This document shows positions 7,381-61,508 of a stretch of DNA of 64,000 nt, piece by piece (the first letter of the stretch is position 1; each line of letters begins with the position of its first letter). A program made the position numbers and the translations under genes. This stretch comes from Archangium lipolyticum (GTDB taxonomy: Bacteria > Myxococcota > Myxococcia > Myxococcales > Myxococcaceae): the NCBI RefSeq assembly GCF_024623785.1, contig NZ_JANKBZ010000014.1, forward strand, positions 124,001-188,000. Reading direction: 5' to 3'. The notes beneath the pieces are model-generated. The model searched no databases and was not told where the DNA came from. It was given only the letters and a program-made list of their open reading frames with translations.

Positions 7381-8646
7381 ATGGAAACCCTGGAGCTGCT
7401 GGTCCGCAACACGTCCGAGGTGCTCACCGTGGAGGGCTCGCACACCGAGCCCGCCGAGCAGGCCCTCACGCCCCGTCCCAACGCCTGTGTCGGCGTGCGC
7501 CGGGGCAAGGTGTGGTACGTGGGCCCCGAGGGCGCCCTGCCGCCGGGCGCCGTGGGCCCCTCCACCCGCGTCATCGACGCGCACGGGCAATTCGTCGGCC
7601 CCGGCTTCGTGGATCCCCACACCCACGCCGTCTTCGCCGGTGAGCGCGCGGCGGAGTTCGACCTGCGCACCCAGGGTGCCACCTACCTGCAGATCGCCCA
7701 GGCCGGCGGTGGCATCGTCAGCACCGTGCGCGCCACGCGCTTCGCCAACGAGGAGGATCTCATCCGGCTCGCCCTGCCCCGGCTGCAGATGATGCTGGAG
7801 TACGGCATCACCACCGCCGAGGTGAAGAGCGGCTACGGCCTCAACCTTCAGGACGAGCTGAAGATCCTCCGGGTGGTACAGCGGCTGTCGGCGCTCCAGC
7901 CCGTGGAGCTGGTGCCCACGCTGCTGTGCGCACACGCGGTGCCGGAGGAGTACCGCGAGTGGCGCGAGGCCTACATGGACCTGTGCATCCGGGAGATCAT
8001 CCCCGCGGTGGCCGAGCAGGGCCTGGCGCGCTTCTGCGACGTCTTCGCCGAGCAGAGCGCCTTCACCCTGGCCGAGGCGCGCCGGATCCTCGTGGCCGCC
8101 CAGAAGCTGGGAATGAAGCCGCGGTTGCACGCCGACCAGCTCACCTCCAACGGGGGCGCCGAGCTGGCGGCCGAGCTCGGCGCGGCCACCGCCGACCACC
8201 TGGAGCACGTGAGCGACGCGGGCATCCGCGCCATGGCCGAGGCGGGTGTCACCGCCGTCCTCGTGCCCACCTCCACCCTCTTCCTGCGTGTGCGGCCCTA
8301 TGCCCCCGGCCGCAAGCTGCGCGACGCGGGCGTCAACGTGGCGCTCGGCACCAACCTCAACCCCGGCTCCGCCATGAGCGAGAACCTCCCCCTCTCCATG
8401 GGGCTCGCCTGCCTGGAGAACGGGCTGACCGCCGCCGAAGCCTACTGGGCCGCTACCCGAGGGGCCGCCCTCGCACTTGGTTTGAACACATACGGCCGGA
8501 TTACCGTGGGCGATCCGGCAAACATTGTCGTTTTTTCGTGCTCAAACTACCGCCACCTTCCCTATCACCTGGGAATCAATCACGCACGGATTGTCATTAA
8601 AGATGGCCATGTGGTGGTAGAAAGCGAGCGGGCCCTCTGTCCGTGA
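7381..8646 (+). CDS. hutI: Imidazolonepropionase
   Basis: A 421-residue amidohydrolase-fold enzyme that hydrolyses imidazolonepropionate to N-formimino-glutamate, the third step of histidine breakdown. Metal and substrate motifs are visible: DPHTHAVFAGERAAEF at about 79-94 (HxH metal site), VKSGYGLNLQDELKIL, LLCAHAVPEEY, LHADQLTSNGGAELA, ADHLEHVS and LGTNLNPGSA. Length and motif order are normal. It starts 3 bases after hutU stops. The codons near the 3' end (about 8470-8640) are noticeably less GC-rich than the rest of the gene. Confidence 0.95.
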   Translation: METLELLVRNTSEVLTVEGSHTEPAEQALTPRPNACVGVRRGKVWYVGPEGALPPGAVGPSTRVIDAHGQFVGPGFVDPHTHAVFAGERAAEFDLRTQGATYLQIAQAGGGIVSTVRATRFANEEDLIRLALPRLQMMLEYGITTAEVKSGYGLNLQDELKILRVVQRLSALQPVELVPTLLCAHAVPEEYREWREAYMDLCIREIIPAVAEQGLARFCDVFAEQSAFTLAEARRILVAAQKLGMKPRLHADQLTSNGGAELAAELGAATADHLEHVSDAGIRAMAEAGVTAVLVPTSTLFLRVRPYAPGRKLRDAGVNVALGTNLNPGSAMSENLPLSMGLACLENGLTAAEAYWAATRGAALALGLNTYGRITVGDPANIVVFSCSNYRHLPYHLGINHARIVIKDGHVVVESERALCP

Positions 8647-36395: not shown

Positions 36396-36972
36396 TCAGA
36401 GCTGGAGGTCCAGCGCCTGGACAGGGCTGATGCTCTTGGCGGTATAGCCAGGCTGGGTGCCGTCGCCCAACTGGCCGCTGAGATTGCCTCCCCAGGTCCA
36501 GACCGTGCCGTCCTTCTTCACCGCGACCGCGTTGTGCATGCTCGCCGCGACGCGGGTGACGTCCGTCAGTCCCTGAACCCGCACGGGCGTCGTGCGCACG
36601 GTGGCTGTGGAGCCATCACCCAGCTGTCCGTCCAGGCTGTAGCCCCAGGCCCACGCGCTGCCATCACTCCTCACCGCCACCGAGAACCGATTCCCCGCGG
36701 CGATGGAGATGACGCCAGGCAGGCTGGCGAGCCGCGCCGGAGTGGTGCGCTTGTCGGTGGCGGCACCATCGCCCAGCTGACCGTGGCCGTTGACTCCCCA
36801 GGCCCACAGCGTTCCGTCATGGCCCACCGCCAGGGAGTGATTTCCATTGACGGAGAGGAGGACGATGCCGGAGAGGCCTGGCACCTGCACCGGAGCCGTG
36901 CGTTGGGTGGTGGTGCCGTCGCCGAGCTGGCCGCTTGCGTTTCTACCCCAGGCCCAGACGGTGCCATCCGGT
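36396..36972 (-). pseudogene. RCC1-repeat gene fragment, 5' end missing
   Basis: The frame holds at least four RCC1/BNR repeats of the bacterial type (DGTVWAWGRNASGQLGDG, DGTLWAWGVNGHGQLGDG, DGSAWAWGYSLDGQLGDG, DGTVWTWGGNLSGQLGDG), spaced by about 52 residues, which normally build a seven-bladed propeller in a secreted protein. Upstream the homology ends abruptly at about 36972 with an in-frame TAA just before the first repeat, so signal peptide and early blades are gone. An ATG-like start inside (36890) is not a real gene start. The 149 bases between this fragment and the broken toxin show nothing recognisable. Confidence 0.65.
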
Positions 36973-54910: not shown

Positions 54911-55933
54911 GTGTCCGATGCCAGGCTCCCCGTTCTCGATTTCGTTCTGAGCAACTACAAGAACTTCAACGCACGCGCCACGCGCGACGCGCTCCTCGCG
55001 TACTGGCGCCACATTTCAGCAGGCGGGCGGATGTTCTGGGCCGTCGCCGGTGCGATGTCGTCTGCCCAGTTGGGGATCACGCTCGCTCCCGCCATTCGCG
55101 CTGGCTTGATCCACGGCCTCTCGGTCACGGGGGCCAACCTCGAGGAGTCGCTCTTCCGGCTCGTCGCGCATCACAGCTACAAGGACTTCCCCGATTATCG
55201 GTACTTCACCAAGGGGGACGATACGAAGATCCTCGCCGACCGGATGCGCCGGGTCACCGACACCAGCATTCCCGAAGACGAGGCGTTCCGAGCGGTTGAG
55301 AAGATTGTCGTGCCCATGTGGCAGCGGGCGACAGCGAACGGTGAGCGGCGCTTCTGGCACGAGTACTTCTACGAGGTGATCCAGGCCATCGAGCCTGGGG
55401 CGTACGAGGGAGACCCCGAGGCCTGCTGGCTCCTCGCGGCGGCGCGTGCACGACTGCCCATCGTCGTGCCGGGCTACGAGGACTCCACCTTCGGGAACAT
55501 CTTCGCCTCGTACGTCAAGACGGGTGAGTGCAACGCCAGCATCGTGAAGTCCGGCATCGAGTACATGGCGGACTTCTACGACCGTTACCAGGAACTCTCG
55601 ACGGGCGCTGGCATCGGGTTCTTCCAGATCGGTGGCGGCATCGCCGGTGACTTCCCCATCTGTGTCGTGCCGTCGATCAAGTATGACCTCGCCCAGCCCG
55701 TGAAGCCGTGGGCGTACTTCTGTCAGATCAGCGATTCGACGACCTCGTACGGTTCGTACTCCGGAGCGACTCCCAACGAGAAGATCACGTGGGACAAGCT
55801 CACGGAGACGACGCCGATGTTCGTCATCGAGTCCGATGCGACGATCGTCGCGCCGCTCGTGCTCCGCGCGCTCCTCGAGTGCAAACTCCACCCCGCCGAG
55901 GCGGAGGCACTCATCGCTCGACACGGTGGTTAG
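54911..55933 (+). CDS. Deoxyhypusine-synthase-like protein
   Basis: A 340-residue protein of the deoxyhypusine synthase family. Matching blocks: GAMSSAQLGITLAPAIRAG, VTGANLEESLFRL, TDTSIPEDEAFRAVE, PGYEDSTFGNIFAS, GIGFFQIGGGIAGDFPI and SGATPNEKITWDKL, in which Lys296 lines up with the catalytic Lys of the human enzyme (SWGKI), then VIESDATIVAPLVLRALLE. Bacteria lack eIF5A, so bacterial members are thought to act in polyamine metabolism (e.g. homospermidine-type reactions); that is known of the family, not shown here. It starts with GTG, preceded by GGAGG at a good distance. Confidence 0.8.
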   Translation: MSDARLPVLDFVLSNYKNFNARATRDALLAYWRHISAGGRMFWAVAGAMSSAQLGITLAPAIRAGLIHGLSVTGANLEESLFRLVAHHSYKDFPDYRYFTKGDDTKILADRMRRVTDTSIPEDEAFRAVEKIVVPMWQRATANGERRFWHEYFYEVIQAIEPGAYEGDPEACWLLAAARARLPIVVPGYEDSTFGNIFASYVKTGECNASIVKSGIEYMADFYDRYQELSTGAGIGFFQIGGGIAGDFPICVVPSIKYDLAQPVKPWAYFCQISDSTTSYGSYSGATPNEKITWDKLTETTPMFVIESDATIVAPLVLRALLECKLHPAEAEALIARHGG

Positions 55934-56696: not shown

Positions 56697-56825
56697 GGAG
56701 GGGGCGGGCTGGTGCAGAGGGGCCGAGGAGGGCCGCTGACGGGTGGCGTCGAGCTTGCACGACGGTGATGGAGGGGGTTCTTATACAGCCCGAGCCGGAA
56801 AACGATGGACGCGCGTTGAGAGGTG

Positions 56826-59474
56826 ATGGAAGTGCCTTCGGATTCATTCCTCGCGCTGATCTCAGAAGCCTGTGCCTTGCAGGGGGGGGCCATGAGCGCC
56901 TGGCGAGTCCAACCTTCCAAGGAGTGGATCCGGGTCCTGCCCAACGAGGCTCCGGTGCCGCAGCAGGGTTGGAAGCTGCATCTCTCGGCGGGTCTGCTGT
57001 CCGCGGAGCGCATCCTGAGCCAGGCCTTGCCGGTGTTGTTGGCCGAGCGGGTGTCCTTCAAGGTGGCCGCCTCACCGCAGGTGCTGGGCGCTCTCAACGA
57101 GGGCCATGGTGGGCGGAGCCAGGTCGGCAAGTTCCTGACGGTCTACCCGCGGGATGACGCGCACGCGGTCCACCTGGCCTCCCGGCTCGACGAGGCCACC
57201 CGTGGTCTGTCCGCCCCATCCATTGCCTCGGATCGGCCACTGCGGCCCGGCAGCTGCGTCTTCTATCGCTACGGCAGCTTCAGCAGCCGTCACATGCAGA
57301 CGCCGCTGGGCCAGGTGATGACCTTGCTCGAGGCGCCAGATGGCCAGCTCGTCCCGGATCGCCGAGAGCCGGTCTACCGGGTGCCTGCGTGGGCGAAGGA
57401 CCCGTTCATCGCAGCGGGGGTGGCAGCTCAGTTGCCCGAGGCCGCGACGGTGCTCGCGGAGCGTTATGCGCCCGTGGCCGTCCTTCACCGCACCCACCGG
57501 AGCACGGTCCTGCTGGCGATCGATTTGAAGGAGATGCGCAAGTGCGTGCTCAAGCAGGTGACGCGCTCCGCGGGCGATGATGCGGCGGGCAGCCGACGCC
57601 TGCGGCACGAACTGGAAGTGCTCACCCTGCTGGCCCCGTCGCCCTGGTTTCCGGCCCCGTACCAGTACGTCGAGGACGAGACCTTCGCCTATCTGTCCAT
57701 GGAGGACATCGAAGGCGAGACGCTCGAGGTCCATGTCCGCAAGCTCTCGGCACGAGGCTGTTTCGCGACCGAGGCTCAGCTCCTGTCCTGGGGGCGCCAG
57801 CTCGCCGAAGCCCTGGCGAGCCTGCATGAGCGGGGACTCGTCCATGGAGATGTCAAGGCCCCCAATGTCATCATCACTTCCAGCGGGAAGCTTCGCCTGA
57901 TCGACCTGGAGCTGGCGCACGGCGCCAGCGCGCCACGCGTCACGGACGCTGGCAAGGGAACCCGCGGTTACATGACACGGGAGCAGTTCTCCGGACAGGC
58001 CTCCACCGTCGCGGATGACGTCTACGCCCTGGGCGCGCTGCTCTACTTCGCCGCCACGAGCGCGGAGCCCTCGCTCGCCCCGGAGGGCTCGTTGCTCTCC
58101 CGGCCCCTCTCCCTGCTCAACCCATTGCTGTCCCCTCGGCTCGCGGCCTTCATCGCGCGGTGCTTGACGCCGGAGCACCGGCCCGACTCGATGCGGGAGG
58201 TCATCGCCGCGCTCTCGGAGCTGGACGCCTCCCCGCCCTCAATCCAGGTCCCTGGTCTGGAGCCCCTGGCCGGTGTGGCTCCGCCGGTGGACCTCTACCG
58301 CATGCAAGCACGGCGTCTGGGCGACACGCTCGTCCATGTGGCGCAGCGAGTCCCCTCCCAGGGCGCCCTCTTCTGGAACCATGGGCACCTCCTGGGCGGA
58401 GGACTGCCCTCCCTGGACATCAACCTGGGCAGCGCCGGCATTCTCCTCACGCTGTCAGCCCTGGTCTCCGCTTTCGACGAGCCAGGGCAGCGGGCCACGC
58501 TCGCCGAGGCGGCGCGCTGGCTGGCGAAGGCTCCGAGACCCGAAGGACCGCCGCACCCGGGTCTCTATGTGGGGGAGGCGGGAGTGGGGCTGGCGCTGCT
58601 GCGCGCCGGACGGGTGTTGGAGGACGAGGGGTTGCTGCGGGAGGCGCGGAAGCGGGCACGGCTCATCGCCTCGCTTCCCTTTGCCTCACCGGACCTGTTC
58701 AACGGCACGGCCGGGCGCGCGAGGTTCCACCTCGAGCTGTGGCGGGAGCTCGACAGCTCCGAGGACCTCCAGGCCGCGCTCGCCGCCGGAGCCGCACTCA
58801 TCGACGGAGCACAGCGCTCGGAGCCGGAAGGACTCCTCAAGTGGGCGATTCCCCCGGGCTATGATGGGCTCAGTGGCCAGATCCAGCCGGGCTATGCCCA
58901 CGGGGCGGCGGGGATTGCCGACACCCTGCTCGAGCTCTACGAAGCCACGCAGGAGAAGCGCTTCCTGGAGGCAGCCCGGGGAGCGGGCCGCTGGCTCGTC
59001 TCGCAGGCGGCCGAGGCGCTGGAGGACGGCAGCGGCTTGTGCTGGCCCCAGCAGGAGGGGGGCCCACCGCACGCGGCACTCTGGTGCCATGGCGCGGCGG
59101 GGATTGGGAAGTTCTTCCTGCATGCTTCCCGGCTGGAAATCCTGCCGGAAGCCGCCGGGTTCGCCGCGCGTGCCGCCAGGACCGTCGCGCGAGGGACTCG
59201 CTGGACCAATCCCGTCCAGTGCCACGGCCTGTCCGGGAATATCGAGTTCCTGCTGGACATGTTCCAGGCCACGCGGGAGCAGGAGTACCTGGATGGGGCC
59301 TACGCGCTCGCCCAGGCCCTCGAGGCCTTCGCCGTGGAGAAGGAGGGCCAGCTCTACTGGCCCGCGGAGAACCCGGAGTCCTTCAGCCCGTCCTACCTGG
59401 TGGGCTATGCGGGAGTCGCGGCGTGTTTGCTCCGGCTCGCCGAGCCCGCCCACCGCGTGTCTCTCTTGCGTTGA
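56826..59474 (+). CDS. Lanthipeptide synthetase (class III/IV, LanKC/LanL)
   Basis: An 882-residue three-domain lanthipeptide synthetase. Residues about 30-205 form the phosphoSer/Thr lyase-like domain (WKLHLSAGLLSAERILSQ, VGKFLTVYPRDD, YRYGSF); about 210-480 a Ser/Thr kinase-like domain (KCVLKQV, LVHGDVKAPNVII near His340, LRLIDLELA); about 505-880 a LanC-like cyclase domain (GYAHGAAGIADTLLELYE at 689-706, WCHGAAGIGKFFLHA, QCHGLSGNIEFLLDM). Cys754, Cys799 and His800 match the NisC zinc ligands with nearly identical spacing (45 versus 46), so the cyclase looks catalytically intact as in class IV (LanL); class III enzymes have lost them. ATG 56826 follows GAGAGG. Confidence 0.9.
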   Translation: MEVPSDSFLALISEACALQGGAMSAWRVQPSKEWIRVLPNEAPVPQQGWKLHLSAGLLSAERILSQALPVLLAERVSFKVAASPQVLGALNEGHGGRSQVGKFLTVYPRDDAHAVHLASRLDEATRGLSAPSIASDRPLRPGSCVFYRYGSFSSRHMQTPLGQVMTLLEAPDGQLVPDRREPVYRVPAWAKDPFIAAGVAAQLPEAATVLAERYAPVAVLHRTHRSTVLLAIDLKEMRKCVLKQVTRSAGDDAAGSRRLRHELEVLTLLAPSPWFPAPYQYVEDETFAYLSMEDIEGETLEVHVRKLSARGCFATEAQLLSWGRQLAEALASLHERGLVHGDVKAPNVIITSSGKLRLIDLELAHGASAPRVTDAGKGTRGYMTREQFSGQASTVADDVYALGALLYFAATSAEPSLAPEGSLLSRPLSLLNPLLSPRLAAFIARCLTPEHRPDSMREVIAALSELDASPPSIQVPGLEPLAGVAPPVDLYRMQARRLGDTLVHVAQRVPSQGALFWNHGHLLGGGLPSLDINLGSAGILLTLSALVSAFDEPGQRATLAEAARWLAKAPRPEGPPHPGLYVGEAGVGLALLRAGRVLEDEGLLREARKRARLIASLPFASPDLFNGTAGRARFHLELWRELDSSEDLQAALAAGAALIDGAQRSEPEGLLKWAIPPGYDGLSGQIQPGYAHGAAGIADTLLELYEATQEKRFLEAARGAGRWLVSQAAEALEDGSGLCWPQQEGGPPHAALWCHGAAGIGKFFLHASRLEILPEAAGFAARAARTVARGTRWTNPVQCHGLSGNIEFLLDMFQATREQEYLDGAYALAQALEAFAVEKEGQLYWPAENPESFSPSYLVGYAGVAACLLRLAEPAHRVSLLR

Positions 59475-59495: not shown

Positions 59496-60503
59496 CTAGT
59501 CCGTCCGCAAGGCCTTGGGGACGTTCTGGAAGGTAGGGGCGTCGCGGACAAGCTCTTCCCGCAGGACGGAGAAACCAGCGCCGAGACGCTCGCTCAACCG
59601 GTAGAGCTCCAGGACGACGGCGAACCAGAGCGACGGCGTCGAACCCCGTCCCTCCGCGAGGAACCCATGAGCCTCCGACAAGAACTCCGCGTCACGCTCC
59701 TGGGCGGCCAGCCACCGCAGCCGCAACCACTGGTGCGGCCGGGCGAAGCGCGCGCAGGCCGCCGACGCGCCGGGTTGGAGATGGGGAGTGAATCGCTCCA
59801 GCCTGCGCCGGGTCTCGGGGGTCTCGGGGGCAAGCACCTCGGCCAGAGACTCCATGACATCGTCGAACGCCGCGGCCCGCATGTCGTCGCTCATGGGCGG
59901 GACCGCGGCGGTGCATTGCGACTCCGGGAGCGGCCAGGAGGCGGTATTGCCCTCGATGTATGAGAGGAGATTCACCCCCAGGTTCAGCGCCTCATCCAGC
60001 CGTCCCCGGCGGGCCTCCATGTGGAGCAGGTTGCGCACGAGGTGGATGCGTCGGGGCTCGAGGAACGTATAGCCATGCGCCCCTTGAAGTGCATGGGTGG
60101 CATCCAAGGCCTTGAACAACGCGGTCCGTGATTGCTCGAAGCGTCCCTCTCGGTAATCGAGGTAGGCCTCCGCGGCCTGATGGATCGAGGTCATGAGCAG
60201 GCGTGCTTCGATGCTCATCTGCTCCAAGCCCAGCTCGGAGCGAGCCTCCCGCATCGCCTGCTCGGCGGCGGCGTTCTCACCGGAGCGTGAGGCGCGCAAC
60301 GCTCGCTCGCGAGGAGCGACGCTTCGGCGGAACCGTTCGATATCCTCGGCTGAAAGCCGGACGATGACCTGGCGCCGAGCCTCCTGCTCAAACCGTCCCA
60401 GCAGGACAGCCTGCGCGGGACGCGAGCTCAGCCCCCGCCCCTGTCTGTATGCTTGCAGAACCATTTGCGGCATCAAGCCAGGCGGCTCCGCTCCACGACT
60501 CAT
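59496..60503 (-). CDS. TPR-like hypothetical protein between synthetase and precursor
   Basis: A 335-residue, mostly helical protein without signal or membrane helix, with short tetratricopeptide-like helices (AEAYLDYREGRFEQSRTALFKALDATHAL, LHMEARRGRLDEALNLGVNLLS). Regions rich in Arg/Glu predict coiled coils near 45-110. It lies on the strand opposite to the synthetase and its precursor. I do not recognise a family, and no HTH or protease motif was found; a regulator or maturation partner of the lanthipeptide system is only suggested by position. Confidence 0.55.
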   Translation of the reverse strand: MSRGAEPPGLMPQMVLQAYRQGRGLSSRPAQAVLLGRFEQEARRQVIVRLSAEDIERFRRSVAPRERALRASRSGENAAAEQAMREARSELGLEQMSIEARLLMTSIHQAAEAYLDYREGRFEQSRTALFKALDATHALQGAHGYTFLEPRRIHLVRNLLHMEARRGRLDEALNLGVNLLSYIEGNTASWPLPESQCTAAVPPMSDDMRAAAFDDVMESLAEVLAPETPETRRRLERFTPHLQPGASAACARFARPHQWLRLRWLAAQERDAEFLSEAHGFLAEGRGSTPSLWFAVVLELYRLSERLGAGFSVLREELVRDAPTFQNVPKALRTD

Positions 60504-60656
60504 CGGACAAGCTCCAGCGGGGACATGATAGAGACCGGTCTCAGCCTATCCGGAACCTCCAGGTTGCTTCTAGCTCTGGGTGTTCATCTCCCACGGGCGA
60601 ACCGCTCGAGGACGTTCCACTCAGCCGGTTCTGGGTTTGATTCAAGATGGTTTTCC

Positions 60657-60706
60657 TTGACATTCAAGAAAACCTTCTTTTAGATGAGCTTGAGAGTAAC
60701 TCTCAA
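60657..60706 (+). promoter_or_regulatory. Promoter with two palindromes upstream of the precursor
   Basis: A consensus -35 TTGACA at 60657-60662, 17 bases, then TTAGAT at 60680-60685 as a weak -10; start near 60692. An inverted repeat GGTTTTCCTTG / CAAGAAAACC (60649-60674) covers the -35, and the perfect palindrome TTGAGAGT-A-ACTCTCAA (60690-60706) covers the start point. Either could bind a repressor. Confidence 0.55.
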
Positions 60707-60732
60707 ACAACGTCGTCATAACGGAAAACCAG

Positions 60733-60945
60733 ATGAACGATACCCTCCAGGACATCCGGGGTAAGGTGCAGGAGCTGTTGAGTCGCGCTGAGATCGATGC
60801 CAGCTTCCGTCAGATGCTGCAGGTGAATCCCGGCGACGTTCTCTGTACCGCAGGCATTCCCAAAGCCGTTGACAGCACACAGGTGGCCCTGCCTCCAACC
60901 TGTGAGGTGGTCAGCTGCATGCTCACCTGTTTTACAACGTCATAG
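60733..60945 (+). CDS. Lanthipeptide precursor peptide with NHLP-like leader
   Basis: A 70-residue peptide. Residues about 1-41 form a leader of the nitrile-hydratase-like (NHLP) style: RGKVQELLSRAEIDASFRQM, then NPGDVLCTAGIP, ending near a CTAG-IPK double-Gly-like position. The following ~29 residues are rich in Thr/Ser/Cys, with Cys57, Cys62 and Cys66 and dehydratable Ser48, Thr49, Thr56, Ser61, Thr65, Thr68, Thr69 and Ser70. This is the composition of a core that a LanL enzyme would dehydrate and cyclise into thioether rings. The synthetase lies about 1.3 kb upstream on the same strand. No transporter or protease gene accompanies it. There is no good Shine-Dalgarno site. Confidence 0.75.
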   Translation: MNDTLQDIRGKVQELLSRAEIDASFRQMLQVNPGDVLCTAGIPKAVDSTQVALPPTCEVVSCMLTCFTTS

Positions 60946-60989
60946 CGTGACGCCGTCCTGGGCCCCTGTCCCCAGGACGCATCACCGTG

Positions 60990-61345
60990 GCGTGATATAA
61001 ATCCACGAAGCGGGCGCCGCCCTGAGAGGGATTGAGGCGGACTTGCCCACCAGCAACGAGGCGAGCGCCGCGAGCCTGTCACCGAAGACACTGCGCGCGT
61101 GCGCGGGCACCTCCCCGCGCGTCACCACCCCGCAGCCAGGGCATTGCAGTGCATGACAGCGATACTCGGTGACGATGGCCGACAGGGGCGGCACCTCCAC
61201 CACCTGATGCCGCCGGGTCGCGCGATCCTGCCCCCACAGCCGTCGCTTGCAACCCCTGCACTCCCCGGGCACCAACTCCACCACGTGCTGCACCTCCTCG
61301 GGCGGCAGCAGCGCGCGCTCATGCTTCTTATGTCCAGGTTGGCCT
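60990..61345 (-). mobile_element. IS66-family transposase remnant
   Basis: On the minus strand QPGHKKHERALLPPEEVQHV, VVELVPGECRGCKRRLWG and YRCHALQCPGCGVVTRGEVP (the zinc-binding CxxC...CxxC region) match IS66-type TnpC. The fragment stops after RLAALASLLVGK, without the DDE domain. It is fused at about 61345 to an IS3-type OrfA scrap. Confidence 0.7.
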
Positions 61346-61349
61346 CCTG

Positions 61350-61508
61350 GACGGTGCCCTTGCCACCCTCGGCCTCGCGTACCCAGTTGCGCAGGGCCGA
61401 CTCGGTCAGGTCCAGGTCCTTGGCCACCTGAGGCAAGCTCTTGCCGCCCTCACGCACCAGTCGGACCGCATCAGCCCTGAACTCCGGAGTGAAACTCCGC
61501 CTCTTCGA
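61350..61508 (-). mobile_element. IS3-family OrfA remnant
   Basis: RRSFTPEFRADAVRLVREGG and GKSLPQVAKDLDLTESALRN, read on the minus strand, are the N-terminal helix-turn-helix of IS3-type OrfA. It runs without a break into the IS66 fragment and overlaps the last ~12 codons of the terpene-cyclase-like gene, so an insertion probably changed that gene's 3' end. Confidence 0.7.

Follow-up and report, generated by a model that had tools for sequence, protein, structure and literature searches.

The 64,000-nucleotide stretch of the Archangium lipolyticum genome analyzed here (the window) encodes a 70-residue peptide at positions 60733–60945 (+), in which a leader resembling those of the nitrile-hydratase-like (NHLP) clan is followed by a Cys/Ser/Thr core. 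A class IV lanthionine synthetase (LanL) is encoded 1.26 kb upstream on the same strand. We consider it probable that the two belong to a class IV lanthipeptide system in which an NHLP-clan leader on the precursor takes the place of the short leader canonical for this class. Leader type helps to recognize lanthipeptide classes, and mining tools find precursors by leader type. An earlier sequence-only reading of the window had already interpreted the peptide as an NHLP-leader precursor paired with a LanL-type enzyme, and comparison with related loci supports this interpretation. The same leader–enzyme pairing recurs in two other phyla, which suggests an undescribed subtype and not a chance event.

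The open reading frame (ORF) proposed in that reading is real and exact, and its translation up to the stop codon is MNDTLQDIRGKVQELLSRAEIDASFRQMLQVNPGDVLCTAGIPKAVDSTQVALPPTCEVVSCMLTCFTTS. The N-terminal leader-like part carries RAEIDASFRQMLQVNPGDVLCTAGIP, and residues 12–43 (60766–60861, +; VQELLSRAEIDASFRQMLQVNPGDVLCTAGIP) match the NHLP-clan models, with the model hit itself covering residues 12–42. In the alignment, the leader continues for about 12 residues after AGIP and then stops, without the EFLxETxLGEVAGY tail of its relatives. The putative core, TCEVVSCMLTCFTTS (residues 56–70; 60898–60942, +), has a predicted start and cleavage site placed at the end of the family-wide similarity in the alignment. 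Three Cys and eight Ser/Thr lie beyond residue 43, and the count given earlier for the core holds for that whole segment. No GG that could mark the end of a leader occurs anywhere in the peptide, and by inspection it contains no canonical class IV leader of the LxxLQELPExD or VxxLHKxE type. The structure model of the peptide has three short helices (residues 3–21, 23–31, and 33–39) at low confidence (mean pLDDT of 63), and a PDB fold search with this model gave no match.

The peptide scored below the curated cut-off of every public model, including NF038399 (Os1348/NHLP clan; E = 0.001), TIGR04509 (0.0039), and TIGR03793 (0.023), with the cinnamycin model at 0.0041. A more telling comparison used a precursor profile built from 20 LanL-adjacent Chloroflexota precursors with the window peptide left out. 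Among the 609 ORFs of the window, this profile gave the peptide 36.4 bits (E = 9.5e-11), the runner-up had E = 1.2, and the top score among 2,000 shuffles of the peptide was 5.8 bits. The same profile detected nothing better than E 0.35 among 2,398 small ORFs around class III, canonical class IV, and class II synthetases and further LanC or kinase genes (36 loci), and the canonical class IV precursors at loci L052–L054 had E values of 0.76–3. The ORF is short, lies outside an operon, and is under the public cut-offs, as a chance reading frame might be; however, its match to an independent profile, its distance from the shuffles, and the fact that the match covers the leader region of precursors whose gene order is conserved across their family make chance a negligible explanation. 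Across the 22 aligned precursors, NF038399 matched 16 (E up to 0.01; best 7e-7, compared with 1e-3 for the window peptide), TIGR04509 matched 12 (E up to 0.01; best 1.9e-7), and TIGR03793 matched nine (E up to 0.01; best 2e-5), which justifies the NHLP label for the precursor family as a whole. In the host's own bacterial family, sequence search alone found only weak and unconvincing homologues of the peptide.

The synthetase ORF opens at a GTG at 56823, but the ATG at 56826 is the likelier start, and the protein (56826–59474, +) contains RamC_N lyase, Pkinase, and LANC_like zinc cyclase domains (Pfam). It scored 716 bits against NF038150, the NCBIfam class IV model (curated cut-off of 650), and 388 bits against the class III model (cut-off of 575). 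When 18 class IV-type and eight class III enzymes were aligned, with numbering from the GTG at 56823, it retained K51, H53, and K80 in the lyase, which we take to be catalytic, and K244, E263, D343, N348, and D361 in the kinase. The zinc ligands C755, C800, and H801 were also present, whereas none of the eight class III enzymes has them. The ligands and the model score rule out class III identity. The earlier reading placed a class III/IV-type synthetase near the peptide; the enzyme, on the same strand as the peptide, is specifically class IV. The class III LanKC enzymes of the host's family (L010–L018) share the lyase–kinase–cyclase architecture but are only 25–33% identical to the window LanL, lack the zinc ligands, and in several cases adjoin VLALQQL- or GG-type leaders. 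Among 189 genomes of its phylum, the window LanL was the only one above the class IV cut-off, and five congeners had no LanL match at the threshold used. This restricted distribution is consistent with horizontal acquisition.

We searched 84,980 species genomes, and then genomes of Chloroflexota and Actinomycetota, for matches to the window LanL. The best match anywhere searched was a LanL with 52% identity from a Chloroflexota metagenome-assembled genome (L019), directly upstream of which lies a 96-residue NHLP-like precursor (L019:5693–5983). Further LanLs from Chloroflexota (L045–L051) and Actinomycetota (L085 and L089), which are 36–51% identical to the window enzyme, also have NHLP-like precursors directly upstream on the same strand. 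There is one such precursor in L050, L051, L085, and L089; L046 has two, L049 three, L048 five, and L047 seven, and L045 has one plus two. Homologous precursor–synthetase pairs, for which the sequence-only reading had suggested a search in other myxobacterial genomes, exist in both phyla, and homologues of the peptide adjoin LanLs of the same clade rather than occurring only where no synthetase is nearby.

Some of these loci have features of their own. The precursors at L047:3971–6462 (seven) and L048:5172–6636 (five) are paralogous, NHLP-like, and different in their cores, and each array lies upstream of a single LanL; both arrays occur in one Chloroflexota genome and may constitute a combinatorial class IV system. 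The window core resembles the L048 cores (CTVTCILTxCTITSL), but 2–13% of shuffles scored equally, so composition suffices to explain the likeness and we do not use it as evidence. At L050:4882–5109 and L051:9828–10055, the precursors have a single core Cys (LFTDSWGCVK), which would permit at most one thioether ring. A second LanL of the L045 genome (L045:373–3043) appears to be broken into a 537-amino-acid lyase–kinase ORF and separate LanC-like ORFs, while upstream of it two precursors persist that share the leader and end in FDSWGCV. At L090:2638–7964, two tandem LanLs (46% and 29% identical to the window enzyme) lie behind one precursor-like ORF (7993–8289, −) with the core DCTITSLTGCCVTLI, which scored weakly against the precursor profile.

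In a maximum-likelihood tree of 26 synthetases (with the BLAST-matched frame used for each row, and with LanL relatives chosen for their similarity to the enzyme of the window or of L019, which makes the sample non-neutral), the 11 LanLs labeled as having an NHLP-like precursor, including that of the window, formed one clade with 100/100 support. This clade also took in one unlabeled enzyme, L087, and the class III enzymes and the class IV enzymes with canonical leaders fell outside it. Class IV enzymes of Chloroflexota and Actinomycetota that are more distantly related carry canonical leaders. The kinase loop of the clade reads D-x-K-x-x-N (HGDVKAPN in the window enzyme), compared with D-F-N-P-x-N in the canonical class IV enzymes of the set and D-x-(A/T/S) in class III. 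The combination of an NHLP leader with a LanL, to which the sequence-only reading had drawn attention, is supported, as a clade-wide feature and not a single oddity.

The relatives also share a gene cassette. A GAF-domain protein and an S8 subtilase accompany the LanL in eight loci (L019, L046–L051, and L089), and an MFS transporter follows in L046, L047, L048, and L051. The subtilase is present in L045 and has an ABC transporter gene beside it in L089, and both S8 and GAF are absent from the stretches examined in two other clade members, L085 and L090. Most precursors of the relatives have no GG site but a conserved EVxGY motif ahead of the core. These two features, together with the subtilase of the cassette, suggest that the subtilase, and not a C39 peptidase, is likely to be the enzyme that removes the leader in the relatives. 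We lean toward the view that the LanLs with NHLP leaders are a separate class IV subclass, with its own leader recognition, the D-x-K loop, combinatorial arrays, and S8 maturation, that has spread between Chloroflexota, Actinomycetota, and the host of the window.

The window locus shares with these relatives a LanL of the 100/100 clade and a nearby NHLP-like precursor, but it is rearranged: its precursor lies downstream of lanL, whereas those of the relatives lie upstream; its leader is shortened; transposase remnants follow downstream; and the adjacent GAF, S8, and exporter genes of the cassette are missing. Neither the window nor the 14 kb that follow it contained an S8, GAF, or MFS homologue, and no peptidase-type ABC exporter was recognized among the neighboring genes scanned, which were part of the genes of the window. 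Between lanL and the precursor, a gene at 59496–60503 (−) is convergent to the former and divergent from the latter, with its start 230 bp from that of the precursor, so the two do not form one operon. This accessory gene encodes a 335-amino-acid protein with no Pfam family, whose structure model is all-alpha with weak, TPR-like fold matches only, and it was found in one of 97 other relatives of the host that were searched. The protein is 26% identical over 291 amino acids (E = 1e-23) to that encoded at L048:11398–12420, which in this Chloroflexota cassette sits between the subtilase gene and the MFS gene. The similarity might conceivably stem from the helical repeats themselves, but the presence of a homologue in the L048 cassette is evidence that the LanL and the precursor are one unit despite the rearrangement.

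The intergenic region shared by the accessory gene and the precursor (60504–60732) has the position of a common promoter region, and its G+C content is 51%, compared with 68% for the window. It contains inverted repeats (60644–60655/60668–60679) and a perfect palindrome with 8-bp arms and a 1-nucleotide spacer (60690–60706; TTGAGAGT-A-ACTCTCAA), which is the sole AT-rich one among the 11 8-bp palindromes (spacer 0–3) in the 64 kb. These repeats may have a regulatory role. No sigma-70 consensus site was found near the precursor. Directly past its stop codon is a perfect 9-bp hairpin (60954–60979, +) without a T tract, which is a possible terminator or 3′ end; no T-tract terminator was found near the precursor. 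An Rfam search of 50–64 kb returned no family. The transposase remnants (zf-IS66 and HTH_Tnp_1; 60982–61457, −) adjoin the precursor downstream.

Several features count against the peptide and the window LanL forming such a class IV system: the lack of a shared operon, the shortened leader without the GEVxGY tail, the missing S8, GAF, and MFS genes, the adjoining transposase remnants, and three LanM-sized LanC proteins encoded elsewhere in the genome. The shortened leader, the transposase remnants, and the missing genes would also fit a decaying or recently moved remnant in which the enzyme and precursor genes look intact but the protease, GAF protein, and exporter are gone, and which may be silent or yield only a peptide that still bears its leader. 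The absence of the LanL from five congeners at the threshold used points the same way, as does the broken LanL beside intact precursors in L045, which indicates that decay occurs in this family. Nevertheless, both window ORFs are full length, the conserved LanL residues are intact, the accessory gene has been retained, and proteases and exporters could act in trans, so that we regard a remnant as unlikely.

The LanM-sized proteins raise the further question of whether a class II LanM from another part of the genome modifies the peptide, with the proximity of the LanL being coincidental. NHLP leaders are established for class II (PMC2887384; main text of PMC7268733), and the genome does encode the three large LanC-domain proteins (L105–L107). 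However, the small precursors beside two of them (L105 and L106) have leaders of a different kind (GG type), the precursor profile fits no ORF in the neighborhood of the three convincingly (best 0.048), and the closest scored relatives of the peptide adjoin LanLs of the same clade as its neighbor, which is the only LanC protein found on the contig of the window. Modification by a distant LanM is accordingly very improbable. The host genome itself appears to be rich in lanthipeptide loci.

The class IV system that we favor would work as follows. In class IV biosynthesis, the LanL phosphorylates Ser and Thr residues of the core and eliminates the phosphate, and the zinc cyclase adds Cys thiols. 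In the window, the new element would be recognition of the helical NHLP-like leader by the nearby LanL. Its kinase domain would then phosphorylate Ser/Thr residues of the C-terminal core, its lyase domain would produce dehydro-amino acids by eliminating the phosphate, and the cyclase with its zinc site would add the three core Cys (C57, C62, and C66) to these, forming (methyl)lanthionine rings, of which up to three would be possible. A protease would finally cut off the leader; in the relatives, this is probably the S8 subtilase of the cassette, but in the window it would have to act from elsewhere.

The canonical class IV lanthipeptides (venezuelin, SflA, and globisporin) likewise combine a Cys/Ser/Thr core with a LanL that has a lyase, a kinase, and a zinc cyclase domain. 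Canonical leaders, however, are short, as in Actinomadura (L021; LVAALQELPETDPVEIDG) and Chloroflexota (L040–L042), in contrast to the NHLP-clan-like leader of the window, and the D-x-K kinase loop differs from the D-F-N of the canonical enzymes at such loci. Class II lanthipeptides and proteusins with NHLP leaders (PMC2887384; main text of PMC7268733) have in common with the present family a nitrile-hydratase-related leader, paralogous arrays, and variable cores. They differ in that the neighboring enzyme in the window is a LanL, and not a LanM or a cyclodehydratase, that the peptide has no GG cleavage site and the window no LanM, and that the relatives of the peptide have an S8 subtilase in their cassette.

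Haft et al. 2010 (PMC2887384) tied NHLP to TOMM and LanM, and passages of the main text of Walker et al. 2020 (PMC7268733) report NHLP leaders in five families of class II, describe different motifs for class III, give no NHLP leader for class IV, and state that 86% of class IV precursors were unannotated. According to a 2025 review (PMC12328550), class IV occurs in Actinobacteria and Firmicutes, and a survey of Ktedonobacteria gene clusters (PMC6497799) does not mention LanL. The FAST-RiPPs report (PMC9576775) describes the production of a class IV product from Chondromyces crocatus with one methyllanthionine; its LanIV is thus also myxobacterial and class IV, and may or may not belong to the same subtype. 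The open-access literature searched describes NHLP leaders for class II and none for class IV. On this literature, the novelty of the pairing is probable, and the "new precursor type" proposed in the sequence-only reading is plausible.

As a LanL branch with NHLP-like leaders demonstrates, the leader of one class can be joined to the synthetase of another, and the branch offers a natural test of leader recognition by kinase-type synthetases. Its precursors can readily serve as a search model for class IV precursors that have been overlooked, and the presence of up to seven different ones beside a single LanL suggests a combinatorial system. Elsewhere in the window, just upstream of the lanL neighborhood, a gene of the deoxyhypusine synthase family (54911–55933; Pfam DS, E = 6.6e-34) has a homospermidine biosynthesis model as its best NCBIfam match, far under the cut-off, and a 164-amino-acid RCC1-repeat ORF at 36396–36890 is possibly a piece of a larger repeat protein.
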